Below, one piece after another: positions 2,126 to 53,355 of a stretch of 64,000 nucleotides of DNA (position 1 is its first letter; each line of letters begins with the position of its first letter). Under the pieces are notes generated by a model. That model did no database searches. It saw only the letters and a program-made list of their open reading frames with translations, and had not been told where the DNA came from. Where the stretch lies: the NCBI RefSeq assembly GCF_007830115.1, contig NZ_VLKP01000003.1, positions 310,001-374,000 of the forward strand. Direction: 5' to 3'. The position numbers were made by a program, and so were the translations under genes. Source of the stretch: Aerolutibacter ruishenii. GTDB lineage: Bacteria; Pseudomonadota; Gammaproteobacteria; Xanthomonadales; Xanthomonadaceae.

Positions 2126-4714
2126 ATGCTCGAAGCCTATCGCCAACACGTCGCCGAACGCGCCGCGCTGGGAATCCCGCCGCTGCCGCTGACCGCGCAG
2201 CAGACCGCCGACGTCATCGAGCTGCTAAAGAACCCGCCGGCGGGCGAGGGCGAGTTCCTGCTGGATCTCATCACCAACCGCGTGCCGGCCGGCGTGGACG
2301 ATGCCGCCAAGGTCAAGGCCTCGTACCTGGCTGCCGTGGCCCACGGCACCGAGAAGAACGCGCTGATCAGCCGCGCCCGCGCCACCGAATTGCTGGGCAC
2401 CATGCTGGGCGGCTACAACATCCACCCGCTGATCGAGCTGCTGGATGACGCTGAACTCGGTCCCGTCGCCGCCAATGCGCTCAAGCACACCCTGCTGATG
2501 TTCGACGCCTTCCACGATGTGCAGGAAAAGGCCGAGCAGGGCAACGCCAACGCCAAGTCCGTGCTGCAGAGCTGGGCCGACGCCGAGTGGTTCACCAGCA
2601 AGCCGGAAGTGCCCGAGTCGCTGACCATCACCGTGTTCAAGGTGACCGGCGAGACCAACACCGACGACCTGTCGCCGGCGCCCGACGCCACCACGCGCCC
2701 GGACATCCCGCTGCACGCGCTGGCGATGCTCAAGAACGCCCGTGACGGCATCACCCCGGAAGAAGACGGCAAGCGCGGTCCGGTCGCCTTCATCGAGTCG
2801 CTGAAGGACAAGGGTCACCTGGTTGCCTACGTCGGCGACGTGGTGGGCACCGGTTCCTCACGCAAGTCCGCCACCAACTCGGTGCTGTGGTTCACCGGCG
2901 AGGACATCCCGTTCATCCCGAACAAGCGCTTCGGCGGCGTGTGCCTGGGTTCGAAGATCGCGCCGATCTTCTACAACACCATGGAAGATGCCGGTGCGCT
3001 GCCGATCGAGCTGGATGTGTCGCAGATGAACATGGGCGACGTGGTCGAGCTGCGTCCGTACGAAGGCAAGGCGCTGAAGGACGGCCAGGTCATCGCCGAA
3101 TTCGCGCTGAAGTCCGACGTGCTGCTGGACGAAGTCCGCGCTGGCGGCCGCATCCCGCTGATCGTGGGCCGTGGCCTGACCGCCAAGGCGCGTGAGGCGC
3201 TGGGCCTGCCGGCCTCGACGCTGTTCCGCCTGCCGCAGAACCCGGCCGACACCGGCAAGGGCTACTCGCTGGCGCAGAAGATGGTGGGTCGCGCCTGCGG
3301 CCTGCCGGAAGGCCAGGGCGTGCGTCCGGGCACCTACTGCGAGCCGAAGATGACCTCGGTGGGTTCGCAGGACACCACCGGCCCGATGACCCGCGACGAG
3401 CTGAAGGACCTGGCCTGCCTGGGCTTCTCGGCCGACCTGGTGATGCAGTCGTTCTGCCACACTGCCGCCTACCCGAAGCCGGTGGACGTGAAGACCCACC
3501 ACACGCTGCCGGAGTTCATCTCCAACCGCGGCGGCATCTCGCTGCGTCCGGGCGACGGCGTGATCCACAGCTGGCTCAACCGCATGCTGCTGCCCGACAC
3601 CGTCGGCACCGGTGGCGACTCGCACACCCGCTTCCCGGTGGGCATCTCGTTCCCGGCCGGTTCGGGCCTGGTCGCGTTCGCCGCTGCCACCGGCGTGATG
3701 CCGCTGGACATGCCGGAGTCGGTGCTGGTCCGCTTCAAGGGCGAAATGCAGCCGGGCGTGACCCTGCGTGACCTGGTCAACGCGATCCCGCTGGCCGCGA
3801 TCAAGCAGGGCCTGCTGACGGTCGCCAAGCAGGGCAAGAAGAACATCTTCTCCGGCCGCATCCTCGAGATCGAAGGCCTGCCACAGTTGAAGGTGGAGCA
3901 GGCATTCGAGCTGTCCGACGCCTCGGCCGAGCGTTCGGCTGCCGGCTGCACCGTGCACCTGGACAAGGCGCCGATCATCGAATACATCAACAGCAACATC
4001 ACGCTGCTGAAGTGGATGATCGCCGAGGGCTACGCCGATCCGCGTTCGCTCGCCCGCCGCATCAAGGCGATGGAAGCGTGGCTGGCCAACCCGCAACTGT
4101 TGGAAGGCGATGCCGATGCCGAATACGCCGCGGTCATCGAGATCGACCTCAACGAAATCGTGGAACCGATCCTCGCCTGTCCGAACGATCCGGATGACGT
4201 GAAGACCCTGTCCGACGTGGCCGGCGCCAAGATCGATGAAGTGTTCATCGGCTCGTGCATGACCAACATCGGCCACTTCCGTGCCGCGGCCAAGCTGCTG
4301 GAAGGCAAGCGCGACATCCCGACCCGCCTGTGGGTCGCGCCGCCGACCAAGATGGACGCCTCGGAGCTGACCAAGGAAGGCCACTACGGCACCTTCGGCA
4401 CCGCCGGTGCGCGCATGGAAATGCCGGGCTGCTCGCTGTGCATGGGCAACCAGGCGCAGGCGCGCGAGGGCGCGACGGTGTTCTCCACCTCCACCCGCAA
4501 CTTCCCGAACCGCTTGGGCCGCAACACCAACGTGTACCTGGGCTCGGCGGAACTGGCGGCGATCTGCTCGCGCCTGGGCCGCATCCCGACCCGCGAGGAG
4601 TACATGGCGGACATCGGCGTGATCAACACCAACGGCGCCGAGATCTACCGCTACATGAACTTCGACCAGATCGAGGAGTATCGCGAAGTGGCGGAGACGG
4701 TCACGGCAGCCTGA
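2126..4714 (+). CDS. acnB: Bifunctional aconitate hydratase 2 / 2-methylisocitrate dehydratase
   Basis: A full-length AcnB (862 residues; family about 865). It interconverts citrate and isocitrate in the TCA cycle and can serve the methylcitrate pathway. Domain order is as in AcnB: N-terminal HEAT-like domain, swivel domain, then the three catalytic domains. The cluster ligands are visible as the Cys in [13 protein letters not shown] and the two Cys in GCSLCMGNQ. The N-terminus [13 protein letters not shown] is the usual AcnB start and follows a GGAG box. A strong hairpin terminator follows the stop. No promoter is obvious in 1961-2125; a TTGAAA near 2037 lacks a convincing partner -10. Confidence 0.98.
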
Positions 4715-4802: not shown

Positions 4803-5606
4803 TCAGGGGGCGTCCAGCCGGGGATCTTCGCGGAGCGCGGCCGACGCCCCCCCAACCTCGGACGCGGCCGCCATCGGGACGGCGTGTTCTCGTGCCTTCA
4901 GCGCGATGATGACGCCGCCAGAGCGGTTTGCGAGCAAGTCGAGCAGGGTATGGATGAGCAGGATGGCGCCGATCATCTCCATGCCCTCCTCGATACTGAC
5001 GAAGGCGTGGTACACCACGTTCCGGTTGCCATGCCCTTCCCGCCACCAGCCTTCCGCGAGTTCGACCCCAAGGGCGCCCCCGAAATAGATAGCGGCGGAA
5101 ACGAGCAGCATGGCCCCAGTCCGGGTGGGAAGACGGCGCACGAACGGCAGGAAGCAGATGCCGAGCGCCACCACAAGGGCGATGCCCGGAATCACCCACG
5201 CGAAGTAGAAGATGCCAAACCGTTCAATGCCCAGGGAGTCGTGCATCAGTGCGCGGAGCGGGTCGATCAGGCGCTCATGCAGCGAAAGGGATTCATCCAC
5301 GCCCATCAGCAGCAAGCCTGCCGCCAGGATGGCCCATTGGATGGCATCGGCGCCGCCGCGCGTGCGCTCCACCCATGCGATACATGCCAGGATCACCGAC
5401 GACGTGAGCAGCAGCAAGGTGGAGAACAGGGCAGGGACGTTGTTCTCATGGTCCAGGCTCATCATGGGCAAGCCCATGACGTCGTCCTGCTGCAGGAGGA
5501 TCTGACATGTCTGCAGCGTCATGTTGATGACCACCAGCGTCAATGCGACGACTCCAAGTCGCCGACAGAAGACCACCGGGTCGAGCTGGAGCCTGGCTGT
5601 CTCCAA
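4803..5606 (-). CDS. Integral membrane protein with intramembrane acidic/His motifs, divergent from the NRPS-PKS operon
   Basis: I do not recognise a named family. The protein has about six hydrophobic segments: LGVVALTLVVINM, ALFSTLLLLTSSVILACIA, AIQWAILAAGLLLMG, IPGIALVVALGICFLPFV, AMLLVSAAIYFGGALG, MEMIGAILLIHTLL. Polar residues cluster at membrane borders: DESLSLHE after segment 3, VELAEGWW after segment 5 and SIEEGMEM before segment 6. This spacing suggests a metal site or a membrane-embedded hydrolase/transferase, which is inference. The stop at 4803 is firm. The start is not: a TTG at 5606 (267 residues) is used here, with GTG at 5576 and ATG at 5522 as alternatives and no clear Shine-Dalgarno for any. 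It is divergent from the NRPS-PKS genes, so a role in export, tailoring or self-protection for that product is possible. Confidence 0.65.
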   Translation of the reverse strand: METARLQLDPVVFCRRLGVVALTLVVINMTLQTCQILLQQDDVMGLPMMSLDHENNVPALFSTLLLLTSSVILACIAWVERTRGGADAIQWAILAAGLLLMGVDESLSLHERLIDPLRALMHDSLGIERFGIFYFAWVIPGIALVVALGICFLPFVRRLPTRTGAMLLVSAAIYFGGALGVELAEGWWREGHGNRNVVYHAFVSIEEGMEMIGAILLIHTLLDLLANRSGGVIIALKAREHAVPMAAASEVGGASAALREDPRLDAP

Positions 5607-5861
5607 AGGATTGTGTCCCGTTTGGTGAAACGCTTCTTGGCGCTGTCGCCCTGTCTGCGACAACGGCGTGGCGTTCCGTGAACGGTCAGGACGGAGCGCA
5701 TCCGGCCATTTGGCCGAACGCCCCCTTTCGCGACGTTGATCCCACACATCAGCGCGACCATCATTCTCCAGTTCATGGATGGCACCCGGCAGGGTGGTGG
5801 CGACCAACGACAGTGGCGACGCCCGCCGCTGGCGCGATGTGGCCGAGAACGGGGAGGAGGC
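5607..5861. promoter_or_regulatory. Divergent intergenic region between membrane protein and NRPS-PKS operon
   Basis: This 255-bp space must hold the promoters of both divergent units. The only clear symmetry is a 14-bp palindrome, CGGCCATTTGGCCG (arms CGGCCA/TGGCCG, 2-nt centre), at 5703-5716, which could be an operator. No convincing -35/-10 pair is visible. An in-frame ATG at 5736 has no ribosome binding site, while GGGGAGGAGG at 5851-5860 fixes the NRPS start at 5862. Confidence 0.4.
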
Positions 5862-8800
5862 ATGAGCCAAGAGATCGCCGGGCGTCCGTGGGATCGGGCC
5901 CCGCGGCCGGAGTTGCCGTGTATCCATGAACGGGTGGAGCAGCAGGCGGCGCGCACACCGGAAGCCGTCGCGGTCACCTGCGAAGGAGTTGAACTCACGT
6001 ATCGCGAGTTGAATCGCCGATCCAATCAATTGGCCCACCGCCTGCGTGCGCTCGGGGTTGGGCCGGAGTCCCTGGTCGCGATCGGACTGGAGCGTTCCGC
6101 CGAGATGCTGGTGGGCCTGCTGGGCATCCTGAAAGCCGGCGGCGCCTACCTGCCCATCGATGCGACGTACCCGCATGACCGGGTGCAATTCATGATCGAG
6201 GACGCCCAGCCTGCGGTGCTGCTGACATCGCCATCGCAGCGGGAAGCGCTGCCGACCGTGGACGTACCCGCGCTGATGCTGGAATCGACCTGGGCGGAGT
6301 TCCAGACGGAGTCGGATCATGATCCCGAACCCCGGGCGACCGGGGACAACCTCGCCTATGTCATCTACACGTCCGGTTCCACCGGCAAGCCCAAGGGCTG
6401 CCAGGTGACCCACGCAAACGCGGCCCGGCTCTTTACCTCCACCGAAGCCTGGTTTGGATTCGGGCCCGGGGACGTATGGACGTTCTTCCATTCACATGCC
6501 TTCGACTTTTCGGTATGGGAAATCTGGGGCGCGCTGGTTCACGGTGGCCGTGTGGTGGTGGTGTCCTACCTGACCAGCCGATCGCCGGAGCAGTTCCTCG
6601 CTTTGCTGCAACGCGAAGGCGTCACGGTGCTGAACCAGACCCCGTCCGCGTTCAAGGCGCTGGTCCACGCGGACCGGGTATCGGGGACCGATCCATCGAC
6701 CCTTGCGTTGCGTTACGTGATCTTTGGCGGCGAAGCGCTTGAGCTGCAGATGCTGCGCCCATGGATGGAGCGACATGGCGACGCGCAGCCCAAGCTGGTC
6801 AACATGTATGGGATCACCGAGACGACGGTGCATGTCACCTACCGGCCCCTGGGCATTGACGATGTCGAACGCAACGTCGGCAGTCTGATCGGGCAGCCCA
6901 TTCCCGATCTCGGGATGTACCTGCTGGATGCCGATCTCGACCTGGTCCCGGTGGGTGAGACAGGGGAGATATACGTGGCAGGGGCAGGGGTCTGTCGCGG
7001 CTATCTCAATCGCCCCGAATTGACCGCCGAACGGTTCTTCGACTGGTCGACGCCCGAGGGGACCACCCTGCGCGTCTACAAGACCGGAGACCTGGCGCGG
7101 CAGCTGCCAGACGGCGACATTTTGTATCTTGGGCGAAGCGACCAGCAGGTGAAGATTCGCGGTTTCCGAATCGAAACCGGTGAGATCGAGAGCGTGCTTG
7201 CCCGTCACGATTCGGTCAGCGCATGCGCAGTGATCGCAAGGCATGACGACGGGCAATCAGATGCGCGCCTGGTTGCCTATGTCGTTCCCGACGTCCGGCC
7301 GGCTTCGCAGGCGGAGCTGCGCCGCCATCTCGCGGAAATGTTGCCGGACTACATGATCCCGACCGCGTTCGTCGAACTTGAGCGCCTGCCACTGACCGGA
7401 AACGGAAAACTCGACCGGCAACAACTCCCCGCTCCGCCTCGCGGACGTCCGGAGTTGGCGCATGGATACGAGCCGCCATCCGGGGCCGTGGAATCGATGC
7501 TGTGCACGTGCTTCGGCGAGATCCTCGGCATCGATGAAGTGGGGCGGCATGACAACTTCTTCGAGCTGGGCGGTGATTCCTTGCTGGCGACCGGGCTGAT
7601 GGACCGCGTCCGTGGATTGCGGGAACATGCGGCCGCAGCGGCAATCACGACGGCCGACCTGTTCCGCAACCCGACACCCGCGAGGTTGGCGGCCGTGATC
7701 AGGGGCACGGATACGGGTGACATCGCCGCCTCGCGGTTCAGTTCAATCCGCGGACGCGAAGGTGGAAGGCTGGAAGAACCCATCGCCATTATCGCGATGG
7801 CGGGGCGGTTTCCGGGCGCATCTGACGTTGAGGCGTTCTGGAACAACCTGTGTGAAGGACGGGACACCATCACCTTCTTCTCTCCCGGAGAACTCGACCC
7901 TTCGGTCACCGCGCAGGAGCGTGACGATCCATGCTACGTCAAGGCGCGCGGCATCATCGATGGGGTGGAACTGTTCGATGCTGGATTCTTTGGAATAGGG
8001 CCGAGGGAAGCGGAGTTGATGGATCCGCAACAGCGGATACTGCTTGAGTTGGCGTGGGAGTGCATCGAGCGGGCAGGTTACGTTCCCGATGCAATGGCCA
8101 GTCCTGTCGGCGTGTTCGCGGGCATGTTCAATGCCAGCTACTTCCAGCGACATGTGTCGCCACGTCCAGACCTCATCGAAAAAGTCGGCGCCTTCCAGGT
8201 GATGCTCGACAATGAGAAGGATTTCATCGCCACCCGTGTCGCCTACAAGCTCAACCTGACCGGCCCCGCCATCAGCATCCACACCGGGTGTTCGACATCG
8301 CTGGTCGCCATCTGCCAGGCGATGGACAGTTTGCGGCTTGGCCACTGTGACATGGCATTGGCTGGCGGCATCACGATTACCTGCCCACCCCGGAGCGGGT
8401 ACATGTACCAGGAAGGCGCGATGCTTTCGCCGGACGGCCACACACGAACCTTCGACGCCAAGGCCCAGGGCACGGTGTTCAGCGATGGCGGCTGCACGGT
8501 GTTGTTGAAACGCCTGTCTGATGCTCTTGTCGATGGTGACCAGGTGTTCGCCGTCATCGTGGGCGGCGCGGTCAACAATGACGGAGGCGGCAAAGCCAGC
8601 TTCACCGCGCCGAGCAGTGATGGACAAGCCGCGGTGATCGCGATGGCGCAAGATCGCGCACGCATCGACCCGCGGAGCATTGGCTACGTGGAGGCCCATG
8701 GGACCGCTACCCCATTGGGAGACCCCATCGAGATAGAAGGCCTCACCCGTGCGTTCCGGCGCGGCACGGATGCATCTGGGTTCTGCCGCATCGGCTCCGT

Positions 8801-10955
8801 GAAGAGCAACATCGGTCATCTTGTGATCGCCGCGGGTGCCGCAGGCGTGATCAAGACGGCGCTGTCGCTATCCGAGGAACGGATTCCACCCAGCCTTCAT
8901 TTCCAGGCGGCCAACGCCGACATCCCGTTCCAGTCATCACCTTTTGTCGTCAATGCATCGCTGGAAGCGTGGCCCAGGTCGGGCATTCCGCGACGGGCAG
9001 GCGTGAGCTCGTTCGGCGTCGGCGGCACCAATGCGCATGTCATCCTCGAGGAGGCCCCCGAGCTGCCTGAATCGGAACCCGGTGACGGGCCCCAGCTGCT
9101 GGTGCTTTCCGCGCGCACACCGGGTGCGCTGGCAGAGGCCGCCAGCAGGCTGGCGGACCATCTTGCGTTGCATGATCCGTGCAATCTTGCCGACGTTGCG
9201 TGGACGCTCGCGGTGGGGCGCAAGGCGTTCCCTCACCGGCTGGCCATTGTCGCGGAGAGCGCTGGGGATGCGGTAGAGCAGTTGCGCAGCCCAGGCGTCG
9301 TCGCGACCACGGCACGCAGCAGGCCTGCACGGGAAAGCCAGGTCGTATTCCTGTTCCCGGGCCAAGGGGCGACATACCCGGGGATGGGACGAGCGCTTCA
9401 TGCGTCGGAGCCCGTGTTCCGGGCCGCGTTGGACGAGTGTGTCGAGGCCCTGGGGGAGCGCTCGGGGCAGGAGCTTATCGGGTGCATCTTCAGCGACAAC
9501 CCCGATGTGATGTTGCCGACCGCCATCATGCAACCGGCGACGTTCGCGATCGAGTACGCGCTGGCCCGGATGTGGCTGGCCCATGGCATCGTCCCGGTCG
9601 CCATGATCGGACACAGTGTAGGAGAGTTCGTGGCGGCAACGCTGGCCGGCGTGTTCGACCTGCCGGCTGCCATCGGACTGGTCGCCACCCGCGGCAAGCT
9701 GATGCAGGCACTGCCGGGTGGAGGGATGTTGTCGGTTCGCATGGCACTGGGCGACCTGCTTCCCCTGTTGCCGTCGGAGTTGTCGCTGGCAGCCGAAAAT
9801 GCGCCCGGCAGCTGTGTCGTGTCTGGATCGCATGACGCGATTGCCCGCTTCCAGGCCACGTTGGAATCCACCGGCGTCGCATGTCGGGCGCTTCGCACAT
9901 CGCATGCGTTCCACTCCCTCATGATGGAGCCTGCCGTGGCGCCATTTCGTGCCGCGGTGGCGAAGCTGCAGCTTTCGGTACCGCGCATTCCCATCGTTTC
10001 GACCGCCACCGGAGACTTGCTCACTCCACAGGAGGCGGTCTCGGCGGATTACTGGGCCTCACACCTGCGACAGCCCGTCCGGTTCTCATCCGCGATCGGG
10101 CACGTCCTGGGCACCGAAACCCATGTGCTGCTGGAAGTTGGGCCGCGCGCCACGTTGTGCACATTGGCCCGCCAGCATCCGGGCGGTCAGCATCACCCCG
10201 TGGCTGCGTTGCCGACCCTGGGCGACAGCCCCGCAACCGAGGACGCTTCGGTGCGTCTGGCCACGGGACAGTTGTGGGCGCGGGGCGTGGCCATTGATCC
10301 TGTGCGGTTCGATCGCCGGCTGCGCCGACGCCGGGTCCGCCTGCCCACGTATCCATTCGAGCGCCAGCGCTACTGGATCGAAGCGGCCACACCAGTCAGT
10401 GCCACCTCTCGTCCGTTGGAACACGCATCCCCACAACCGGTGGCGCAGGCACCGGAGTCAGGCGGCGTTGTTGATGCCGTCGGCAACGACGTCGGTGAAG
10501 ACCGTCGCAGCCGACTGCTTGCACAACTCAGGAGCATCATCGAGGACACGGCGGGGTTCCGGCTCAGCGATGCGGACTCGGAGGTGGGCTTCATTGAGCT
10601 TGGCCTCGATAGCCTGATGCTCACGCAGGTTGCCCTGCAACTGCAGCGTGCCTTCTCCGTGAAGATTTCATTCCGCCTGCTGATGACGTCTTACGCGAGT
10701 CTCGCCCGGCTTGCCGAGCACCTTGATGCGGAGTTACCGGACGATCCGCACCTCCATGCCCGTGCCGATGATGCCGTTGGGATGGAACTGCCCGCTGGCG
10801 ACGCCGGCCGCCGTCGCCGCATACGGCGAATGGGAACGGATGCTTCGAATCCGGTTTTGCCCGGGGCCCGCCTGGGTCGCGATCCCGATGGTCGGCCTGC
10901 ATGGTTCGTGACGGATCCGCAGCGATCAGGAAAGTTCCTGAGGGTGGGGACATGA
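5862..10955 (+). CDS. Hybrid NRPS-PKS, A(Thr)-PCP-KS-AT(malonyl)-ACP
   Basis: A 1697-residue assembly-line enzyme. Residues about 20-520 are an adenylation domain (TSGSTGKPKG near 171, YGITETT, YKTGD, NGKLDR near 514). The ten specificity positions read by hand give DFWNIGMVHK, a canonical threonine code. A carrier domain follows (FELGGDSLL, Ser573), then a ketosynthase (about 640-1060; Cys810 in GCSTS, His946 in EAHGTAT, His986 in NIGH), an acyltransferase (about 1160-1450; Ser1252 in GHSVGE and HAFHS at 1348, pointing to malonyl-CoA) and an acyl carrier (ELGLDSLML, Ser1584). There is no ketoreductase or dehydratase. With no N-terminal condensation domain it should initiate with threonine and add one ketide unit, leaving a beta-keto thioester. 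The tail ends PDGRPAWFVTDP, like linkers before condensation domains in hybrid lines. The stop overlaps the next start (ATGA). Confidence 0.93.
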   Translation: MSQEIAGRPWDRAPRPELPCIHERVEQQAARTPEAVAVTCEGVELTYRELNRRSNQLAHRLRALGVGPESLVAIGLERSAEMLVGLLGILKAGGAYLPIDATYPHDRVQFMIEDAQPAVLLTSPSQREALPTVDVPALMLESTWAEFQTESDHDPEPRATGDNLAYVIYTSGSTGKPKGCQVTHANAARLFTSTEAWFGFGPGDVWTFFHSHAFDFSVWEIWGALVHGGRVVVVSYLTSRSPEQFLALLQREGVTVLNQTPSAFKALVHADRVSGTDPSTLALRYVIFGGEALELQMLRPWMERHGDAQPKLVNMYGITETTVHVTYRPLGIDDVERNVGSLIGQPIPDLGMYLLDADLDLVPVGETGEIYVAGAGVCRGYLNRPELTAERFFDWSTPEGTTLRVYKTGDLARQLPDGDILYLGRSDQQVKIRGFRIETGEIESVLARHDSVSACAVIARHDDGQSDARLVAYVVPDVRPASQAELRRHLAEMLPDYMIPTAFVELERLPLTGNGKLDRQQLPAPPRGRPELAHGYEPPSGAVESMLCTCFGEILGIDEVGRHDNFFELGGDSLLATGLMDRVRGLREHAAAAAITTADLFRNPTPARLAAVIRGTDTGDIAASRFSSIRGREGGRLEEPIAIIAMAGRFPGASDVEAFWNNLCEGRDTITFFSPGELDPSVTAQERDDPCYVKARGIIDGVELFDAGFFGIGPREAELMDPQQRILLELAWECIERAGYVPDAMASPVGVFAGMFNASYFQRHVSPRPDLIEKVGAFQVMLDNEKDFIATRVAYKLNLTGPAISIHTGCSTSLVAICQAMDSLRLGHCDMALAGGITITCPPRSGYMYQEGAMLSPDGHTRTFDAKAQGTVFSDGGCTVLLKRLSDALVDGDQVFAVIVGGAVNNDGGGKASFTAPSSDGQAAVIAMAQDRARIDPRSIGYVEAHGTATPLGDPIEIEGLTRAFRRGTDASGFCRIGSVKSNIGHLVIAAGAAGVIKTALSLSEERIPPSLHFQAANADIPFQSSPFVVNASLEAWPRSGIPRRAGVSSFGVGGTNAHVILEEAPELPESEPGDGPQLLVLSARTPGALAEAASRLADHLALHDPCNLADVAWTLAVGRKAFPHRLAIVAESAGDAVEQLRSPGVVATTARSRPARESQVVFLFPGQGATYPGMGRALHASEPVFRAALDECVEALGERSGQELIGCIFSDNPDVMLPTAIMQPATFAIEYALARMWLAHGIVPVAMIGHSVGEFVAATLAGVFDLPAAIGLVATRGKLMQALPGGGMLSVRMALGDLLPLLPSELSLAAENAPGSCVVSGSHDAIARFQATLESTGVACRALRTSHAFHSLMMEPAVAPFRAAVAKLQLSVPRIPIVSTATGDLLTPQEAVSADYWASHLRQPVRFSSAIGHVLGTETHVLLEVGPRATLCTLARQHPGGQHHPVAALPTLGDSPATEDASVRLATGQLWARGVAIDPVRFDRRLRRRRVRLPTYPFERQRYWIEAATPVSATSRPLEHASPQPVAQAPESGGVVDAVGNDVGEDRRSRLLAQLRSIIEDTAGFRLSDADSEVGFIELGLDSLMLTQVALQLQRAFSVKISFRLLMTSYASLARLAEHLDAELPDDPHLHARADDAVGMELPAGDAGRRRRIRRMGTDASNPVLPGARLGRDPDGRPAWFVTDPQRSGKFLRVGT

Positions 10956-13900
10956 GCACCGCAGCCATTGCAGCGACTCCCATTCTGGAGCCGGTGGATT
11001 ACGATCCGTTCGCCGGGGGGGCGCTGGAGCGTGTGGTGCCGACCACCCGCGCCCAGCGCGAGATCTGGCTGGCGGACCAGTTGGGCCAGGATGCGTCGTT
11101 GGCGTTCAACCTGGCCGTGCGGTTGCGATTCCACGGCGAACTGGATGTCGATGCCTTGTGCCAGGCATTGCAGGATCTCGCGGATCGGCACGATGCGCTG
11201 AGGGCAAACGTTGCTCCGGATGGCCTGGAGCTGTGCATTCGATCCAGCGCTCCACTTCCAGTCGAGTATTTCGATTTCGCCGGGTTCGGACCTGTTGACG
11301 CCGGGGCTGCCGTCTCCGAGCGGTTCGACCGGGCGGTACAGACGCCATTCTCGTTGGCCGTGGATCCGCTGTTCCGGGCCGAACTGATGCGCATCGGGGC
11401 GGGCGAACACGTCCTGCTGCTTGCCGCGCACCACGTGGTCTGCGATGGCTGGTCCTGGTGGGTGATCGTGCGCGAGCTGGGTGCGCTGTATGGACAGCAT
11501 CTGGCACGACGAGAGCCCCAACTTCCGGAACCGGCAACCTTTGGGGATTTCTGCCTCGACGAGGCGGAGTCGTACGAACCTTCAAAGCGCGAGGCGGATG
11601 AAGCGTACTGGCAGGGCCGCTTTCCCGGTGCTGCGACCGTACTGGAATTGCCGGCCGACAGGACCCGCCCACCGGTTCGCAGCTTCGCATCGGCATGGGT
11701 GGACCATGTACTGGATGAAGACCTGCTCTGCGCACTGCGACACGTCGGCGCACGTCGCAATGCGAGCCTTTTCGCCATGCTGCTGGCGGGGTTCTCGGGC
11801 CTGCTGGCCCGATTGACCGGCCAGTCCGACATCGTCATCGGAATTCCTGCCGCCGGGCAGCCCGTTGCGGGCTGCGATGACCTCGTCGGGCACTGTGTCA
11901 ATACCCTTCCGCTTCGTTTCGACGTCGATGCATCCGATGCGTTCTCGAAGCTGCTGGATGTTGCCCAGGGCACCTTGCTCGACGCGTTGGACCACCAGCA
12001 GTGCACGTTGGGAACATTGTTGACCCGGTTGCGGCTTCCTCGGGATCCAGCCCGAATGCCATTGGTGAGCGTGCTGTTCAACCTGGACCAGGCCATCGAC
12101 CAGCAGAGCGAGGCCTTCGAAGGCCTCGCGATGGAATTCGACAGCGTTCCGCGAACTTTCGAGACGTTCGAATTATTCGTCAATGCGGTCCAGGCGAAGG
12201 GGCAACTGAGGCTTGAGTGCCAGTACAACACCGACCTGTTCGACGCTGCGACCATCCGCCGCTGGCTGCGGGCCTACGAGTGCCTGCTGCGTGGCGCCGT
12301 GGAATCGCTGTCGACGGAGTTGCGCAGGCTCCCCATGCTGGATGCGGAGACCAGGAGCGAGCTTGGGCAGTTGCAGCCCGGGCCAGTGGAATACGATTAC
12401 GCGTGCCGGGTGCACGAGTACTTCGAACGGCAGTGCGATCGTACGCCGATGCGTCGTGCGGTCCTGGCTGGAGGCACCGGTTGCAGCTACCAGGATCTCG
12501 AGGCGCGCGCCAACCAGATCGCACATGTGCTGCGTGAACACGGCATCGGGAGGGGCGCCCTGGTGGGCGTGGCGATCGGGCGTGGCGTGGACATGCTCGC
12601 GGCGTTGCTGGCGATCCTGAAGTCCGGTGCCGGGTATGTTCCGCTGGATCCCGCATTCCCCACCGAGCGCCTCGCGTTCATGGCTGCGGACGCAGGGCTG
12701 GCCATGCTGGTGACCACGCGCGAGCATGCTGATCGCGTTGACCTGCGGGGTCGCCCCGTGCTCCTGCTGGACGCGGACTCTGGACGAATCCACGACGCGT
12801 CCGCGCAGAGGCTTGGCCCGGACGCCGATTGCGCTTCGCCGGAGGACCCCGCCTATGTCATTTATACGTCGGGCTCCACCGGCCGACCCAAGGGCGTGGT
12901 GGTGCCACACCGGGCCGTGTCGAATTTCCTCTCCAGCATGCGTGCAAGCCCCGGCCTGTCCGAGCACGACCGGTTGGTGGCGGTCACGACCCTGTCCTTC
13001 GACATCGCGGTTCTCGAGCTGCTGCTGCCATTGAGCGTCGGCGCGGAAGTGATAGTGGCGGACCGTGATACGGCGAGTGATGGCCAAGCGCTTCGGGCGT
13101 TGGTCGAATCCAGCAACGCTACGGTCATGCAGGGAACGCCATCGAGTTGGCGATTGCTGCTGGAGGCGGGCTGGAAAGGTTCGAGCGCGTTCAAGGCCCT
13201 GTGCGGTGGTGAGCCGATGGCACCCGATCTGGCTGCATCATTGCTGTCCCGGTGTGGTTCAGTCTGGAACCTGTATGGCCCCACGGAGACGACCGTCTGG
13301 TCAACGTGTGCCCACATCGAGCGCCGTGGGGACGGGGCGATGCCGGACGTCCACATCGGGCGTCCAATCACCAATACCAGCATCTGGATCGTGGACGGCG
13401 GTGGAGAGCTCTGTCCGCTCGGCGTGCCGGGTGAGATCTGCATAGGCGGGCACGGCGTAACCCGGGGTTACCTGGACCGGCCGGAGTTGACCTCGGCGCG
13501 TTTCATCCCGGACCGCTACACCTTTGCCGAAAGCAATGACCTCCACCCGGTCGTGCCGGCATGGCTCTATCGGACAGGCGATCGCGGCCGCTGGCGGAAG
13601 GACGGAAACCTTGAACACATGGGAAGGCTGGACAATCAGGTCAAGGTTCGTGGCTATCGCATCGAACTGGGTGAGATCGAGGCAAACCTGTGCGCCTGCA
13701 CCGGAATCGCACGGGTGGCCGCGATCGTCCGGGAGGATCGGCCGGACGACCTGCGGCTGGTGGCCTACGTCGTCCCGTTACCCGGTACCGTGCTCGACGA
13801 GGCGGCGCTGAAGAATCAACTTCAGGGCGTGTTGCCGGCCTACATGCTGCCGCAGCACATTGTCGTACTGGATGGCCTGCCGGAGCTTCCAAACGGCAAG

Positions 13901-14290
13901 ATTGACCGCAACGGACTGCCACCGCCCCTTGCCAAGGCAAGCGCCCCGGCTGCCAAGGTGGAGGCTCCAGCCACGGGGATCGACCCGAGGGTCCGCTATC
14001 TGTCCGGGCTCTGGTCCGAGCTGCTGGGAGTGCCGGCCAGCGCGGAGGACAATTTCTTTGAACTCGGCGGCCACTCCATGCTGGCCGTCCAGATGGCCAG
14101 CCGGGTGCAGCGCGACACCGGCCATCGCATCAAACTGATAAGCCTGGGAGCGGAGACCCTGTGCCAGGTAGCATCGCGGTTGCCGATGCCGGACAGCAGC
14201 GGCGGGAGCAGTGCGGGTGTTGGCGGGCGAATCGGCAGTGGATTGCGCCGACTGTTGGGCATGGACAAGGCAGACCAGGAGGCACGGTGA
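10952..14290 (+). CDS. NRPS module, C-A(Gly)-PCP
   Basis: A 1112-residue NRPS, translationally coupled to the preceding gene (ATGA at 10952-10955; GGGTGGGGA box just upstream). Condensation domain about residues 25-450 with HHVVCDG (His160-His161) in the HHxxxDG site. Adenylation domain about 490-1000 (TSGSTGRPKG, YGPTETT, YRTGD, NGKIDR). The hand-read specificity residues are DILQLGLVWK, matching glycine codes. Carrier domain with FELGGHSML (Ser1042). The protein ends shortly after (GMDKADQEAR) with no thioesterase, reductase or terminal condensation domain. Combined with the first enzyme, the predicted thioester is threonyl-C2-ketide-glycyl. Release may be spontaneous, by Dieckmann-type cyclisation, or by an enzyme encoded elsewhere. 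No phosphopantetheinyl transferase lies nearby. Confidence 0.93.
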   Translation: MSTAAIAATPILEPVDYDPFAGGALERVVPTTRAQREIWLADQLGQDASLAFNLAVRLRFHGELDVDALCQALQDLADRHDALRANVAPDGLELCIRSSAPLPVEYFDFAGFGPVDAGAAVSERFDRAVQTPFSLAVDPLFRAELMRIGAGEHVLLLAAHHVVCDGWSWWVIVRELGALYGQHLARREPQLPEPATFGDFCLDEAESYEPSKREADEAYWQGRFPGAATVLELPADRTRPPVRSFASAWVDHVLDEDLLCALRHVGARRNASLFAMLLAGFSGLLARLTGQSDIVIGIPAAGQPVAGCDDLVGHCVNTLPLRFDVDASDAFSKLLDVAQGTLLDALDHQQCTLGTLLTRLRLPRDPARMPLVSVLFNLDQAIDQQSEAFEGLAMEFDSVPRTFETFELFVNAVQAKGQLRLECQYNTDLFDAATIRRWLRAYECLLRGAVESLSTELRRLPMLDAETRSELGQLQPGPVEYDYACRVHEYFERQCDRTPMRRAVLAGGTGCSYQDLEARANQIAHVLREHGIGRGALVGVAIGRGVDMLAALLAILKSGAGYVPLDPAFPTERLAFMAADAGLAMLVTTREHADRVDLRGRPVLLLDADSGRIHDASAQRLGPDADCASPEDPAYVIYTSGSTGRPKGVVVPHRAVSNFLSSMRASPGLSEHDRLVAVTTLSFDIAVLELLLPLSVGAEVIVADRDTASDGQALRALVESSNATVMQGTPSSWRLLLEAGWKGSSAFKALCGGEPMAPDLAASLLSRCGSVWNLYGPTETTVWSTCAHIERRGDGAMPDVHIGRPITNTSIWIVDGGGELCPLGVPGEICIGGHGVTRGYLDRPELTSARFIPDRYTFAESNDLHPVVPAWLYRTGDRGRWRKDGNLEHMGRLDNQVKVRGYRIELGEIEANLCACTGIARVAAIVREDRPDDLRLVAYVVPLPGTVLDEAALKNQLQGVLPAYMLPQHIVVLDGLPELPNGKIDRNGLPPPLAKASAPAAKVEAPATGIDPRVRYLSGLWSELLGVPASAEDNFFELGGHSMLAVQMASRVQRDTGHRIKLISLGAETLCQVASRLPMPDSSGGSSAGVGGRIGSGLRRLLGMDKADQEAR

Positions 14291-14377: not shown

Positions 14378-15001
14378 TCAATCCAGATGCGCGCTGATCG
14401 CGGACACGATGTCGCGGCGGCGCAGCAGGAAATCCCACAGGCTGCCGCCCAGCTGACGCCAGAGCACGGCAGAGCGTACGGCGGCCAACAGCACCGCGCG
14501 TACCTCCGCCACCACGTTGGCCTGGCCCAGGTAATGCGGGTTGCCCTGCACCAGCACGCGCGGACGCAGATGACTGAGCGTTTCGGCATACAGCCCGCCC
14601 AGTGCGGACAGGACGTCCGGATGGGTGGTGCCTTCGCGCTCCGCCAAGGCGGCCTGGGACTGGATGCCGTGCTGCACGCGACGGCCCATTGCTTCGTCCG
14701 TCACGAAGCGCCGCTCCAGTTGCAGGACGGCCAGCGCAAGGCGCGGCAACTGTTCGTCGCGCGACTTGCTGGAGAAATACTCACGCAGCAACGACAGCCC
14801 GGGACGCAACGACTCCACGCCGCCGTAAACGGCCGCGGGCGTCGCCGCGTCGATCCTGAATACCGAGTCCAATGCCGTCGACAGCACGCGCTGCTCCGCC
14901 GTGCCGGTATCGGCGATGCGACGCACCTGCGCCAGGGCCTGCGCCAGCCCGGCGAGTGCCAGGACGCGCTCGGACATGGGATTTGTACGGGATTCGCTCA
15001 T
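14378..15001 (-). CDS. hflD: HflD homologue (lysogenization regulator family)
   Basis: A 207-residue, mostly helical protein ([20 protein letters not shown] at the core N-terminus). HflD in E. coli is a peripheral membrane protein that affects lambda CII; its general cellular role is uncertain. Identification rests on length, the helical pattern with segments such as GNPHYLGQ, and above all the nudJ-mnmA-hflD order, which is the same as in E. coli. The ATG at 15001 overlaps the mnmA stop (ATGA), giving the reported start; an internal ATG at 14977 is an alternative. It converges on the NRPS gene with 87 nt between. Confidence 0.88.
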
Positions 15002-16116
15002 GCAGCTTGGACCTTCAGGCGTTGTTCCAGGGGGGCATCGGTAGCGGCGATCACCGCACCACCAAGGCACTCATCTCCGTCGTACAGTACGAGCGACTGG
15101 CCTGGCGTCACGGCGCGCTGCGGACGGGCGAAGCGGACCTCAAGCGTGCCGTCGTCCTGGACGGTCACCTCGCAGGCCTCGTCGGCCTGGCGGTAGCGCG
15201 TTTGCGCCGAACACTCGAAGCGTTGGGCGGGCGGTGCGCCAGAAATCCAGTGGGCCGCTTCCGACCATAACCGACCCGACTGCAGCCATGGAAAGCCGAT
15301 GCACTGGTCCACGTACAGCACGTTGCTGGCCACGTCCTTGCCCACCACGAACCACGGCGCCGGCTCGAACCCGCGCACGCCACCGATGCTGAGCCCTTCG
15401 CGCTGGCCCAGTGTGTAGAAGAACACGCCGGGGTGCTGCCCGATCACCTGGCCTCCGGGCGTGCGCATCTCACCGGTCCGGGCCGGCAGGTAGCGTGACA
15501 GGAACTCACGGAAGTCGCGCTCGCCGATGAAGCAGATACCGGTCGAGTCCTTCTTCGCGGCGGTCGGAAGACCGGCCTCCTGCGCCATGCGGCGCACGTC
15601 GGTCTTGACCAGCTCGCCCAGCGGAAAGCGGGTGCTGGCCAGTTGCCGTTGTCCCAACTGGTGCAGGAAATAGCTCTGGTCCTTGTTGCGGTCGCGGGCG
15701 CGCAGCAACTGGAATTGCCCGCGGTGCTCCGCGACGCGTGCATAATGCCCGGTGGCGATGAACTCGGCGCCCAGGTCATGGGCGGCATCGAGGAAGTGCT
15801 TGAACTTGATCTCGCGGTTGCACAGCACGTCGGGGTTGGGCGTGCGTCCGGCTGCGTACTCGGCCAGGAAGTGCTCGAACACGCCTTTCCAGTACTCGCC
15901 CGAGAAATCGCGGAAATGGATGGGAATGCCCAGCCGCCCGCATACCGCCACGGCATCACGCCGGTCATCCTCGGCACGGCATTCGCCGCTGCCGTCGTCG
16001 GCCCAGTTCTGCATGAAGAGTCCGGCGATCGGCTCGCCGGCGTCGCGCAAAAGCATTGCCGCGACGGACGAATCCACGCCGCCGGACATCCCGACGATGG
16101 TGCGGACCTCGCTCAT
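14998..16116 (-). CDS. mnmA: tRNA-specific 2-thiouridylase
   Basis: Installs the 2-thio group on U34 of tRNA-Lys, -Glu and -Gln using ATP and sulfur relayed through the Tus pathway. The 372 residues match the family length. The N-terminal PP-loop motif [12 protein letters not shown] binds ATP. The first catalytic Cys lies in [14 protein letters not shown] and the second in [11 protein letters not shown], both intact. The start overlaps the nudJ stop and the stop overlaps the hflD start, each by ATGA, so the three genes are translationally coupled. Confidence 0.98.
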
Positions 16117-44722: not shown

Positions 44723-47200
44723 TCAACGTTCGAACGTGCCCGCTCGGACCAGACGGTCGGAGGCGCTGCCGATCCAGACTGTGTAGGTGCCGGATGGAAT
44801 CACGAATGTCTTGCGCGAGGCGTCCCACACGCTCAGCGGGTGATGGCTGGCGTTGGGGTCAATGTCGATGGCCACACGCTGGTCGGTGCCGGGTGCGAGC
44901 TGCAGCTTGCTGAAACCGACCAGTCGCTTGGGCGGTTGCGGCAGGCCGGACCCTGACGGCACCGTGAGATATACCTGCACCACCTCCGAACCCGCGCGCG
45001 TGCCGGTGTTGCGCACGGTGGCCTCGACCCGATAAGGGGCACCATCTGTGGACGGGGCCTGCAGGCGAGGCGTTTCGATCGCGAAGGTGGTGTACGACAG
45101 CCCGTGGCCGAAGGCGAACGCGGGGCGCTTGCCGTTGGCGTCGTACCAGCGGTAGCCGATCTGCAATTGCTCGCTGTATTCGACGTGGGGAATGCCTTCT
45201 GCATCCATCACGCCAGGGTATTGCCGGGGCGTCACCGTCTCCATGAAGCCCTGGCCTTCGACCGGGAAGGTGACCGGCAACTTGCCCGACGGGTTGTGTA
45301 CGCCCAGCAGCAGGTCGGCGACGATGTGGCCATCCTCCTGTCCAGGAAACCAGACTTCCAGCATCGCTGGGCCCTTCGTGCCGAGCCAGCGAGCGGGCAG
45401 CGGCACGCCTGCGTTGTCCTTGAGCACCAGCGCGGTCTTGGCATGCGTCGGACGAGCGGTTGTCGAGCGCACGCCGAACAGGCGATCAATCATCGCGATG
45501 GTGTGGCTGTTGCGGCCGGCGTTGTCGCCGCCGTCGAAGGAGAGCGCCTTGGGCAGCGGGGCGTACCAGTCAAGGGAGTCGCCGCGGGCGGTCAGTTTCC
45601 CGCCCGATTTGTCGGCGAAGGTCGCGCGATCCGCGCCTTCCTCGGCGACGGTACCGGCCATGATGACGACCGCATCAGCGTTGGCGGCAGCCTGGAGCAC
45701 GTCATCGAAACCCGCCGCCTTGCCATCGATGGTCGCATCGCCGTTTGCATCGTCCACCAGCGCCAGTCGCACATCGACGGCGGTGTTGCCGGTCTGCGCG
45801 TAGATGGCGCGAAGCCCATCGACGGGGGTGACGGTGTAGAAGGGCACCACATCCGAACTGCCGCCGCCGGCACCCATGACCTTGCCCACCACTGAACCGC
45901 CTGCGACCGCCTGCTGCGCATAGATCTGGCTTGCCTTGCCGACCAGCAACACCCGTTTTGCGTCATGTGGCAGCGGTAGCGCGCCGTTGTTCTGCAGCAA
46001 CACCGCGGTCTCCACGCCAATCGCACGTGCCTGCCTGCCGCCGCCCTCCACATCCAGATCCTGTTGCACGATCGGTTTGTCGAACACGCCGAACTTGAAC
46101 ATCTGCACGTAGCGGCGCCGCAGTGCGGTGTCGATGTCGGCCATGGACAGCTCGCCGGCATCCAGCGCGGCGCGCAGCTTGTCGGGGGCGAAGAACTGCG
46201 GCAACGGCATCTCGTGGTCGAGTCCCGCGCGCATCGCCTTCGCCGTGCTCTTGGCGGCGAAGAAGTCGGACTGCACATAGCCCTGGAAGCCCCACTGGCG
46301 CCGCAGAACGTTGGTAAGCATCTCCTCGTTCTCGCAAGCGAACGCGCCGTTGAGCGCGTTATAGGAGCACATCACCGCACCGGCCTCGCCGTCCTTGATC
46401 GTCATCTCGAACGGCAGCAGGTACATCTCGTGCAACACCTGCGGATCGATGCGTTCGCGCACCGACATGCGGTTGGTTTCCTGTTCGTTGCCCACGTAGT
46501 GCTTGGCGACGGCAATCAGGCCCTTGCCCTGCACGGCGCGCGTCTCGGCCACCGACATCACACCGGCCAGGTAGGGATCCTCTCCCTTGTATTCGAAGTT
46601 GCGGCCGGCCAGCGGCAGCCGCGCAAGGTTCATGCCCGGCGCCTCGAACACATGCAGCGCCAGCCGGCTGCCTTCCTCACCCATCAGCTCGCCGAATGCG
46701 GTCGCCACGTGGGGATCGAACGACGCAGCGATGGCGAGCGCCGACGGCACTGCCGTGGCCTTGGCGGAGGACGGGTGGAAATAGACCGCGTTGTCGACGT
46801 ACAGGCCATTGACGTACGCCATGTCGGGCGGGGTATCGAGCCCGACGCAGTCGTTCTGGCCGATGCCGACCGGGCCGTTGGTGATGCGCAGCGTCGGGAT
46901 TCCCAGTGCGGGAATCCCGGTGGTGTGGCGGGCACCCTTGCAGTGCGGCAACTCGGGCACGATCTCCGGTACCGCTCCGGTCAGCTGCTGGGCCTTCTGC
47001 TCGAAGCTCATCGCGGCCAGCAGCAGGTCGGCCCTGCGCCCGGGGTCCATGCCCTTGTCCATCCATGGCAGGCCAGTCGTTGAGGCGCGGCTCATTCCAG
47101 CCCCCTTGGTCGGAGTGCTGGCGCAACCCGGCAAGGCCAGCACCGCTGCCACCAGTGCGATCGCGGGAAAGAGATGGCCTCGAAAGGATAGGGGCACCAT
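44723..47200 (-). CDS. GH3 beta-glucosidase lipoprotein
   Basis: An 825-residue secreted glycosidase. Signal peptide with lipobox ALPGCAS (Cys about residue 26) predicts an outer-membrane or periplasmic lipoprotein. GH3 N-terminal barrel: KHYVGNEQETNRM, and the nucleophile Asp in YVQSDFFAAKST (SDF rather than the usual SDW). The alpha/beta sandwich contains VVIMAGTVAEEGADR, and a fibronectin-III-like C-terminal domain follows. ATG 47200 has AGGGA 7 nt upstream; ATG 47215 is an alternative. It lies 37 nt upstream of the dehydrogenase genes, so sugars it frees could be oxidised by them. A GC-rich hairpin (47234-47262) precedes it. Confidence 0.92.
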   Translation of the reverse strand: MVPLSFRGHLFPAIALVAAVLALPGCASTPTKGAGMSRASTTGLPWMDKGMDPGRRADLLLAAMSFEQKAQQLTGAVPEIVPELPHCKGARHTTGIPALGIPTLRITNGPVGIGQNDCVGLDTPPDMAYVNGLYVDNAVYFHPSSAKATAVPSALAIAASFDPHVATAFGELMGEEGSRLALHVFEAPGMNLARLPLAGRNFEYKGEDPYLAGVMSVAETRAVQGKGLIAVAKHYVGNEQETNRMSVRERIDPQVLHEMYLLPFEMTIKDGEAGAVMCSYNALNGAFACENEEMLTNVLRRQWGFQGYVQSDFFAAKSTAKAMRAGLDHEMPLPQFFAPDKLRAALDAGELSMADIDTALRRRYVQMFKFGVFDKPIVQQDLDVEGGGRQARAIGVETAVLLQNNGALPLPHDAKRVLLVGKASQIYAQQAVAGGSVVGKVMGAGGGSSDVVPFYTVTPVDGLRAIYAQTGNTAVDVRLALVDDANGDATIDGKAAGFDDVLQAAANADAVVIMAGTVAEEGADRATFADKSGGKLTARGDSLDWYAPLPKALSFDGGDNAGRNSHTIAMIDRLFGVRSTTARPTHAKTALVLKDNAGVPLPARWLGTKGPAMLEVWFPGQEDGHIVADLLLGVHNPSGKLPVTFPVEGQGFMETVTPRQYPGVMDAEGIPHVEYSEQLQIGYRWYDANGKRPAFAFGHGLSYTTFAIETPRLQAPSTDGAPYRVEATVRNTGTRAGSEVVQVYLTVPSGSGLPQPPKRLVGFSKLQLAPGTDQRVAIDIDPNASHHPLSVWDASRKTFVIPSGTYTVWIGSASDRLVRAGTFER

Positions 47201-47233
47201 GGATAGTCCCTGCATGCTGAGTCGAATGGTCCG

Positions 47234-47262
47234 ACCACGACCGGTGGTATGCCGGTCGTGGT
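47234..47262 (-). promoter_or_regulatory. Perfect hairpin between doxX and the beta-glucosidase gene
   Basis: 11-bp perfect arms (ACCACGACCGG with CCGGTCGTGGT) enclose a 7-nt loop. There is no T-tract on either strand, so it is not a classical terminator. It could be an operator or a transcript-processing/stabilising hairpin within the doxX-to-GH3 transcript. Confidence 0.5.
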
Positions 47263-47287
47263 GCGTTACGGATCACGACGTCGTGCG

Positions 47288-47674
47288 CTACTTCCGGCGG
47301 TTTGACAGCACGGCATCCAGGCTGTATCGGCCCGCGCCCGTGGTCCAAAGGATCAGGAAACCACCCGCCATGGCGATGTTCTTCAACAGGTTGACCTGTT
47401 GCGTTGGGTCGGCGACGTTGCCGTGGAACAGGATGCCGCTGGCGAGGCAGAACAGCGTGAAGGCGATTGCCAGCCAGCGAGTTGCAAATCCGGCCAGGAT
47501 TGCCAGCCCACCGCCGAGTTCAAGGAGGATCACCAGCGGCAGCAATACGCCGGGCACGCCCATGGATTCCATGTATTGCTGGCTGGCGGCATAACCCGCG
47601 ATCTTGCCCCAGCCGGAAATGATGAAGATCAGGGACAGGCCCAGGCGGCCCAACAGATTGGCGAAATCGTTCAC
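47288..47674 (-). CDS. DoxX-family membrane protein
   Basis: A 128-residue protein with four membrane helices (LGLSLIFIISGWGKI; LLPLVILLELGGGLAILAGF; WLAIAFTLFCLASGIL; NIAMAGGFLILWTTGAG), the DoxX/DoxD fold. The family is linked to thiosulfate:quinone or other redox chemistry, but most members are uncharacterised. The GTG at 47674 (VNDFANLLGR) follows GGGAGA and gives a proper first helix. Same strand as the beta-glucosidase, 87 nt upstream. Confidence 0.85.
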   Translation of the reverse strand: MNDFANLLGRLGLSLIFIISGWGKIAGYAASQQYMESMGVPGVLLPLVILLELGGGLAILAGFATRWLAIAFTLFCLASGILFHGNVADPTQQVNLLKNIAMAGGFLILWTTGAGRYSLDAVLSNRRK

Positions 47675-47836
47675 GCAGCTCTCCCAAATCAACCGTGAGC
47701 CGGGCATGAGGGTCGGCAGGGAATCGTTACGAACACGGCCAGATCTTCGCTAACCGGTTGATGGATCGGTGAAATTCCACCCTCGGCCGCACTCCCAGGC
47801 CCGGCCCTCCCCAGGAAGCTGTGGCACCATTCAACC

Positions 47837-48389
47837 ATGGCCACCACCTACTATTTCTTAGACACCGAGTGGGCCGATGTAACCGGCAGCGAGCTGGTGA
47901 GCCTGGCGTTGGTGAACGAGGACGGTGATCGCCACTTTTACGCCGAGCGAGCCCGATCTGCCCGAGAGCCCTACCGATTTCGTTCGTCAAAGCGTCTACC
48001 CGCTACTCGACCGCGGCGGCGCGGCCCTGCCGGATGCCGCCCTGACGACCGAGCTGCGCGCCTTCCTCAGCGAGGCCGACGCGCCGGCGGTGTTGGCGGA
48101 TTTCCCGAACGACCTTCAGCTGCTGCGGTATGCCTTGGATGGATTTGAGCTCCCTGATGACCAGGTGGCTGCGTGCGGCCCCCGGCCGGCCCCGGTCATG
48201 ACGCGTATGTCCAAGGAAGGCCTTCCGGGATTGCTGGTGGAAGATTGGTTCGCGGCCCATCCAGAACATAGGGCCAGACGCCACCATGCCTTGGTAGATG
48301 CGCGGGCCTTGCGGATGGCGTGGCTGGTGGCGACCGACCGCATCCCTGCTCCGGCGTGGGCCCACTCCTACCGCCGCGCCCGGGGATAG
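47837..48389 (+). pseudogene. Frameshifted DEDDh-type 3'-5' exonuclease-like gene
   Basis: The N-terminus MATTYYFLDTEWADVTGSELV, with the D-x-E metal motif, is open from 47837 but shifts frame near 47950. The rest continues in another frame (PDLPESPTDFVRQSVYPLL onward) to the stop at 48389, ending with HHALVDARALRMAW, the H-x4-D signature. Removing one base near 47953 would give ...FYAEEPDLPE... and a continuous protein of about 183 residues, like the Rv2179c/DUF5051 exoribonuclease group. Either a recent frameshift or an assembly error. Confidence 0.78.
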
Positions 48390-48410
48390 CGGCATGGCGT
48401 CTATCCCCGG
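48380..48410. terminator. Hairpin at the end of the exonuclease-like gene
   Basis: 10-bp perfect arms CCGGGGATAG/CTATCCCCGG around an 11-nt loop; the arms include the TAG stop. No T-tract follows, so termination is uncertain. A second small dyad (GTGATCG/CGATCAC, 48461-48481) abuts the tRNA-like gene. Confidence 0.4.
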
Positions 48411-48481
48411 TATGCTTGCCCCATGAACCGCCTGAGCCAGCTCGACCCTCGAATACCGGCGTGATCGCATCGATCGATCAC

Positions 48482-48584: not shown

Positions 48585-48587
48585 CCG

Positions 48588-53346: not shown

Positions 53347-53355
53347 AATTGACGA

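Follow-up and report, generated by a model that had tools for sequence, protein, structure and literature searches.

A probably displaced, aminotransferase-less threonine line of Aerolutibacter ruishenii and its possible release at an exopolysaccharide locus

How is the chain removed from an assembly line that carries no release domain of its own, and what is the product used for? This question is raised by two coupled genes lying between acnB and hflD in a stretch of 64,000 nucleotides of the genome of Aerolutibacter ruishenii (assembly GCF_007830115.1, contig NZ_VLKP01000003.1, positions 310,001 to 374,000), hereafter the window, which encode a short hybrid of nonribosomal peptide synthetase (NRPS) and polyketide synthase (PKS). 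As judged from its sequence, this line is a threonine-starting member, devoid of an aminotransferase (AMT) domain, of a family of short NRPS-PKS lines of the Lysobacterales that are found mostly in exopolysaccharide (EPS) loci. We propose, with chances that we regard as even, that it is a displaced line building a Thr-C2-Gly chain, that this chain is released in trans by a hydrolase pair encoded on another contig of the genome (contig C13), and that the product is made for, or attached to, EPS.

The gene pair and its relatives

Gene 1 (5862-10955, 1697 amino acids) and gene 2 (10952-14290, 1112 amino acids) are both transcribed forward and overlap by ATGA. Protein 1 has the order adenylation (A), thiolation (T), ketosynthase (KS), acyltransferase (AT) and acyl carrier protein (ACP), and protein 2 the order condensation (C), A and T, as assigned with the Pfam families for AMP-binding, PP-binding, KS, AT and Condensation. 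No ketoreductase (KR), thioesterase (TE), reductase or second C domain was found in either protein (Pfam, E<=0.001). The features of the pair are as follows, T* being the terminal carrier.

5862..10955, + strand: hybrid NRPS-PKS gene 1, A(Thr-type)-T-KS-AT(malonyl-type)-ACP plus a C-terminal linker (Pfam, code alignment)
5937..7409, + strand: first A domain, code DFWNIGMVHK, Thr-type (limits from Pfam, code from alignment)
7482..7697, approximate limits, + strand: first T domain, GGDS (Pfam, motif by eye)
7776..8903, + strand: ketosynthase, HTGCSTSL (Pfam, motif)
9345..10172, + strand: acyltransferase, GHSVG and HAFH, malonyl-type (Pfam, motifs)
10524..10724, + strand: ACP, GLDSL (Pfam, motif)
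10860..10952, + strand: relic linker PGARLGRDPDGRPAWFVTDPQRSGKFLRVGT at the end of protein 1 (match to the post-AMT linker of relatives)
10952..14290, + strand: NRPS gene 2, C-A(Gly-type)-T* (Pfam)
11027..12364, + strand: Condensation domain, HHVVCDG intact (Pfam, motif)
12422..13900, + strand: second A domain, code DILQLGLVWK, Gly-type (Pfam, alignment, PDB match)
13955..14185, + strand: terminal carrier T* (149.9 bits with the T* profile, the window T being among the training sequences)

By eye the motifs are intact, including CSTSL, HGT and KSNIGH in the KS, GHSVG and HAFH in the AT, GLDSL in the ACP, HHVVCDG in the C domain, and GGDS and GGHS in the T domains; the KS motif of the window, HTGCSTSL, differs from HTACSTSL, the consensus of eight aligned Thr-starting lines. 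The two A codes were extracted by alignment in columns that we take to be those of the GrsA numbering, and presumably, by the published code tables, they specify Thr (DFWNIGMVHK) and Gly (DILQLGLVWK); PMC10080011, searched for codes, gave no match. Among PDB matches with a single matched stretch, the best for the second A domain was 5u89 (415.6 bits); the search itself does not state its substrate, and we take it to be DhbF, a glycine-loading NRPS. Pfam, motifs and alignment agree with the initial annotation on the domain order, the codes, the malonyl-type AT and the absence of a KR and of any release domain in cis, from which its prediction of a threonyl-beta-keto-glycyl thioester does follow. 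Its start at 4803 was too low, as 4803 to ca. 5606 is a separate, unrelated membrane-protein gene on the minus strand. Protein 1 would load Thr and carry out one malonyl extension without reduction, giving 4-amino-5-hydroxy-3-oxohexanoyl-ACP; protein 2 would then add Gly, and the chain (calculated as C8H14N2O5 for the free acid) would stand on T*.

The line had also been described as an orphan, a view that its distribution contradicts. Matches to protein 1 at E<=1e-250 were found in 44 of 198 genomes and 17 of 54 genera of the family, with identities of 41-72% over the matched part, and at the level of the order homologues were present in 56 of 299 genomes, belonging to 24 of 85 genera. The source genome (G000, 3.36 Mb) holds a single full copy of protein 1. 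The homologue in the sole other genome of the genus that was compared is 69% identical, which, together with the two long coupled open reading frames, argues that the pair is not a chance arrangement. Twenty-one relative loci (L033 and L037-L056), a subset of the 45 family matches spread over the range of identity, were read at ca. 20 kb; L027, which repeats L055, was counted once. In all of them A, KS, AT, ACP, C and A follow in that order, the first T giving no match in L052 and L053, and the window line shares this family architecture, in which A-T-KS-AT-ACP precedes a C-A(Gly-type) module. All 22 loci read at length, the window counted in, have a Gly-type A domain; the first A domain is Thr-type in eight of the 34 distinct lines read (of 45 matches) and Val-like, Pro-like, Ser-like or unassigned in the rest. 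A search of the genome contigs with the first A domain (79 loci, by patterns generic to A domains) rendered as close loci those of Luteimonas weifangensis (L087) and Lysobacter concretionis (L097). The eight Thr-starting lines form one clade in the KS tree (support 100/99), nested in an AMT-bearing Lysobacteraceae group, and the identical eight-row clade appears in the protein 2 tree, also with 100/99. With the AMT-bearing lines of EPS loci, such as L040 and that of Lysobacter concretionis, the window line shares the A-T-KS-AT-ACP core, the Gly-type A domain and T*; it differs from them in the lack of the AMT and of a third module, in the Thr start (L040 is itself Thr-starting) and in its location outside an EPS locus.

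Loss of the aminotransferase domain

The predicted open beta-keto position is consistent with the domains, but the account was incomplete, the keto group being a derived state in a line that stems from an AMT-bearing family. An AMT domain lies within the line in 14 of the 21 relative loci (L028, which scored as lacking it, being left out of this count, with a flank of just 1.5 kb), and in the two checked by Pfam, L040 and L043, it is of class III and lies between the ACP and the C domain. Lines for beta-amino acyl chains that contain an AMT include those of mycosubtilin/iturin and microcystin, whose order KS-AT-ACP-AMT-C would be the ancestral form of the window line, in which the AMT is deleted. 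The domain is missing from the window, L033, L037, L038, L039, L041 and L042, all Thr-starting, and from the Ser-starting L046, so that seven of the eight Thr-starting lines are without it and L040 alone keeps it.

Protein 1 ends in PGARLGRDPDGRPAWFVTDPQRSGKFLRVGT, which matches the post-AMT linker of L040 (PGARLGRAPDGSPAWFVPDPDRTGKFLKVGT) and those of L043, L044, L047 and L056; with this linker still in place, the window line must have lost the domain by deletion. On the other hand, L038 and L039 retain a glutamine-rich stretch (EQQMQLLQQQL) like the ACP-AMT spacer of several AMT-bearing lines, L041 has neither this stretch nor the post-AMT linker, and L042 gave no alignment row. The different remains in L038/L039, in L041 and in the window suggest that the Thr clade lost the AMT through separate deletions. 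The placement of L040, which groups with L039/L041 in the KS tree (91/86) and with the window and L033 in the protein 2 tree (96/91), makes recombination and regain of the AMT in L040 alternatives to repeated loss. In the Ser-starting L046 the AMT has also been lost, two glutamine-rich repeats and the post-AMT linker being kept.

Terminal carrier, hydrolase pair and exopolysaccharide genes

A T* profile was built from the terminal T domains of seven Thr lines, that of the window among them. T* lies directly upstream of hydr2, an alpha/beta-hydrolase gene, in 18 of the 21 relatives, the exceptions being L050, L052 and L053. In the 12 of these 18 loci that were outside the training set T* scores 58-138 bits (highest in L038, a Thr line), whereas the other T hits there reach at most 41 bits, bar a piece of the T* of L054 itself, which is apparently split by a frameshift. 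Although the line of L043 terminates in a TE, a stand-alone T* gene lies before hydr2 there. An unusual T-TE-T* order was seen in L047 (17729-19078, + strand), where T* follows a TE-like segment and directly precedes hydr2. Homologues of hydr2 were detected by tblastn in 19 of the 21 loci. In L038 (4780-14064, - strand) a frame of 3094 amino acids joins the line to hydr2; we do not accept it as a Rosetta-stone case linking T* to hydr2, because the T domain leaves the frame just before its end, and a frameshift, biological or from sequencing, is likelier than a designed fusion.

The partner gene, hydr1, encodes a protein in which Cys117, Asp140 and His250 are invariant in 14 aligned sequences, Asp being replaced by Asn in the distant homologue of L102. 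All 13 aligned hydr2 sequences have Arg161, which lies, by eye, at the nucleophile elbow; since an Arg takes the place expected of the nucleophile, hydr2 was rejected as a catalytic partner and is probably non-catalytic. By profile, and by the fold of an AlphaFold model of moderate confidence (mean pLDDT 70.9, pTM 0.75, built from 3 sequences), hydr1 matches esterase-type hydrolases. The 21 PDB matches obtained with the hydr1 profile (E<=0.1) do not name NcmC, nor do the 50 listed of 1486 Foldseek matches of the model, no search with TrdC or NcmC itself having been made, and homology of hydr1 to TrdC/NcmC was rejected as finding no support by profile or fold at the depth searched.

Neither hydrolase gene has a match within positions 1-24000 of the window. 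In the source genome EpsB_2, a phosphopantetheinyl transferase (PPTase), hydr2 and hydr1 are all on contig C13, at the EPS locus of this genome, together with another NRPS set, and EpsB_2, hydr2 and hydr1 each occur once in the genome. The earlier statement that the line has no release therefore holds in cis, but another contig of the same genome carries a candidate pair. We suggest that this pair would remove the chain in trans, with hydr1 contributing the invariant Cys and His. The C13 set comprises a formyltransferase protein, a C-A-T protein with an embedded luciferase-like monooxygenase and a C-A-T protein 56% identical to protein 2; it is without a KS, yet accompanied by the hydrolase pair. 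In its first part (L034, 3322-9522) the formyltransferase protein is followed by the C-A-T protein with the monooxygenase inside its A domain, an arrangement that we take to be of the type that forms a terminal amide in myxothiazol. TE-terminated hybrid lines carry a C-terminal PF00975, which the window line lacks, and the whole genome rendered two weak matches to this family, at 25.0 and 22.3 bits, under the cut-off of 26.4.

In relatives the surroundings point to EPS. A homologue of the EPS glycosyltransferase gene EpsB_2 of L033 was found by tblastn in 17 of the 21 loci, and EpsB_2 scores over the TIGR03013 cut-off in all ten genomes tested. In L033, the same-genus relative, the line is linked to EPS genes and to hydr2-hydr1, and the locus also has a gene with a GINT1_N domain and, scoring under the cut-off, one for an HfsF-like flippase. 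Nine of the ten order-level loci outside the family belong to a sister family (f12) whose lines include an AMT and end in a T*-like carrier (57-82 bits), several of their second A domains having other codes, e.g. DIMQVGGVYK; the remaining one, L180, is a line of another kind (family f9). EpsB_2 is near the line in three of these ten. In five of six f12 flanks a GT2-like glycosyltransferase gene comes next after T* (one confirmed by Pfam), the sixth having a GT4-like gene on the opposite strand (one such confirmed by Pfam), and the flank of L177 includes a polysaccharide deacetylase (Pfam). It is on this context that the last step of the proposal rests, namely that the product is probably attached to, or made for, EPS.

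Craig et al. in 2011 reportedly linked N-acyl amino acid synthases to exosortase A (XrtA)/PEP-CTERM genes. Like these systems, marked by TIGR03013, TIGR03100 and TIGR03101, the present one has EpsB_2 over the cut-off, distant relatives of the family proteins in hydr1 and hydr2, and a small amino-acid product expected beside EPS genes; unlike the XrtA-linked synthases, which use an acyltransferase, the window line is a multimodular NRPS-PKS. The exosortase family PF09721 has no match in the source genome and is over its cut-off in 13 of the 198 family genomes. A true exosortase/PEP-CTERM locus was therefore rejected, and we do not class the system as XrtA-type, as hydr1 and hydr2 are under the curated cut-offs and the genome has no exosortase. 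For small molecules derived from amino acids and made beside EPS/exosortase genes, these synthases (cited in PMC7293339 and PMC4897644) are a precedent. In the open-access literature searched, subscription papers and MIBiG being outside its scope, no paper was recognisable as describing NRPS-PKS lines at EPS loci of the Lysobacterales; an unspecified NRPS cluster is mentioned in the description of a Luteimonas species (PMC12281983).

Several observations weigh against release and use at EPS as proposed here. The window copy is unlinked to EPS genes and to hydr2-hydr1, so that the hydrolases would have to act across loci, which is the weak link of the proposal. The C13 pair is just 41-45% identical to the same-genus pair and may, given this low identity, be specific to the C13 line; moreover, the window copy may have come in horizontally and so not have worked for long beside that pair. 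Release by these hydrolases is itself putative, and both are below the curated TIGR03100/TIGR03101 cut-offs. In addition, hydr2 is missing in L052 and L053 and is not beside the last T in L050, the seeming union of T* with hydr2 in L038 looks like the result of a frameshift, four of the 21 stretches showed no EpsB_2, hydr1 and hydr2 are absent from the ten order-level loci within the stretch read, and without an exosortase the parallel to XrtA systems is incomplete.

Origin of the window copy and alternative products

The flanks are housekeeping genes, as first annotated, with acnB and hflD confirmed on either side.

2126..4714, + strand: acnB, left flank (Pfam/family match)
4803..5606, approximate limits, - strand: divergent membrane-protein gene (homologues near relatives)
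14378..15070, - strand: hflD, right flank (family match)

The membrane-protein gene has no match in Pfam or NCBIfam. All seven Thr-starting relatives have a homologue of it beside the line, whereas the other 14 loci have none, so that this gene and the two synthetase genes make up a unit that reached the site jointly. The homologous line of the same-genus genome lies within the EPS locus, and between acnB and hflD that genome has a TonB-receptor-like gene. The distance from acnB to hflD is short in G100, at 1.1 kb, and in G038, at 131 bp; the two genes are not within ca. 6 kb of each other in G015, and in G048 the contig ends here. The window line and the same-genus line come out as a pair in both trees, and a vertically inherited copy may simply have been relocated. 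However, the two synthetase genes have a synonymous divergence (dS) of 1.49 and 1.76 to that line, far above that of five neighbouring genes (acnB 0.22, clpA 0.27, PIN 0.54, mnmA 0.80 and hflD 0.90), so that horizontal gain is at least as likely. The options would be either horizontal gain from a near relative, or exchange of copies in one of the genomes, or relocation followed by fast evolution. The third-position G+C is 0.75-0.77 in the window line versus 0.91-0.94 in acnB and clpA; the L033 copy is equally low (0.77).

These features would also fit a copy that yields no product in this genome, being either a relic or newly arrived and lacking its partner genes, since it is detached from the PPTase, EpsB_2 and hydrolase genes, has lost its AMT and departs from its neighbours in third-position G+C and dS. 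We consider this improbable: both frames are open across 8.4 kb with motifs intact by eye, and the ratio of nonsynonymous to synonymous divergence (dN/dS, NG86) against the same-genus homologues is 0.15 for both genes, although it is averaged over both lineages, at a dS (1.5-1.8) near saturation, and would mostly reflect other genomes if the genes were gained horizontally. If the line does work, its product could be a free, diffusible Thr-C2-Gly acid or amide (a signal, chelator or inhibitor) released by hydrolysis and without any tie to polysaccharide. The detachment of the genes from the EPS locus in this genome, the esterase-like character of hydr1 and the TE domain within the line of some relatives (L043) are all in keeping with such a product, which seems nonetheless rather unlikely in view of the frequency of EpsB_2 in relative loci and of the glycosyltransferase-like genes after the sister-family lines; the adjoining genes, moreover, are acnB, the membrane-protein gene and hflD, the rest of the window not having been annotated for transporters or regulators.

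The initial annotation had favoured a 3-threonyl tetramic acid (calculated C8H12N2O4) as the product, formed from the beta-ketoamide glycyl thioester by a Dieckmann closure, which might be spontaneous or due to hydr1. The chemistry is possible, as the beta-keto group is left wherever the AMT is absent, that is, in seven of the eight Thr-starting lines. The lines of tirandamycin (TrdC), streptolydigin (SlgL) and nocamycin (NcmC) resemble that of the window, in architecture, in a TE-less terminal C-A-T and an expected beta-ketoacyl chain. According to the available parts of PMC4979870 and PMC10956176, these stand-alone alpha/beta-hydrolase cyclases use Cys-Asp-His, an outline shared by hydr1 with its invariant Cys, and KirHI makes a tetramate from an N-acetoacetyl-glycyl thioester (PMC4979870). 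On the other hand, hydr1 is esterase-like, with no NcmC among its matches, its Asp is replaced in L102, it is not adjacent to the window line, and the hydrolase pair also stands beside AMT-bearing lines, whose presumed beta-aminated product would have no ketone, and beside the KS-less C13 line. The neighbours acnB and hflD are not cyclases and the membrane protein has no family match (no TrdC/NcmC query of the window or genome was made); specific enzyme support for the closure was not found in these comparisons, and we give it little chance.

Release in trans for EPS can be extended, as a possible though doubtful generalisation, to the whole order: Lysobacterales lines would build amino-acid-C2-Gly substituents of EPS on T*, to be handed over by a pair of Cys-hydrolase and pseudo-hydrolase or by a neighbouring glycosyltransferase, the Thr clade having switched from beta-amino to beta-keto products by AMT deletion, probably more than once. 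If so, an NRPS-PKS family common in an environmental order would serve the cell surface and not a classical secreted metabolite, and genome mining would have to turn to the EPS locus or to a different contig for the release enzymes. The lines would also offer a natural series, with the AMT kept or lost, the starter changed and the type of terminal carrier constant, for studying carrier recognition by a release pair acting in trans.

Two further observations concern other parts of the window. Genes for a MazE/AbrB-like antitoxin and a PIN-domain toxin lie between acnA and acnB (1241-1957, + strand; Pfam), the PIN gene being 99% identical in the same-genus genome. The region 47000-56000, a possible island, has a G+C of 0.60-0.67, mostly under the norm of the window; it surrounds a solitary tRNA-Ile (48512-48584), and no rRNA family is matched anywhere in the window.

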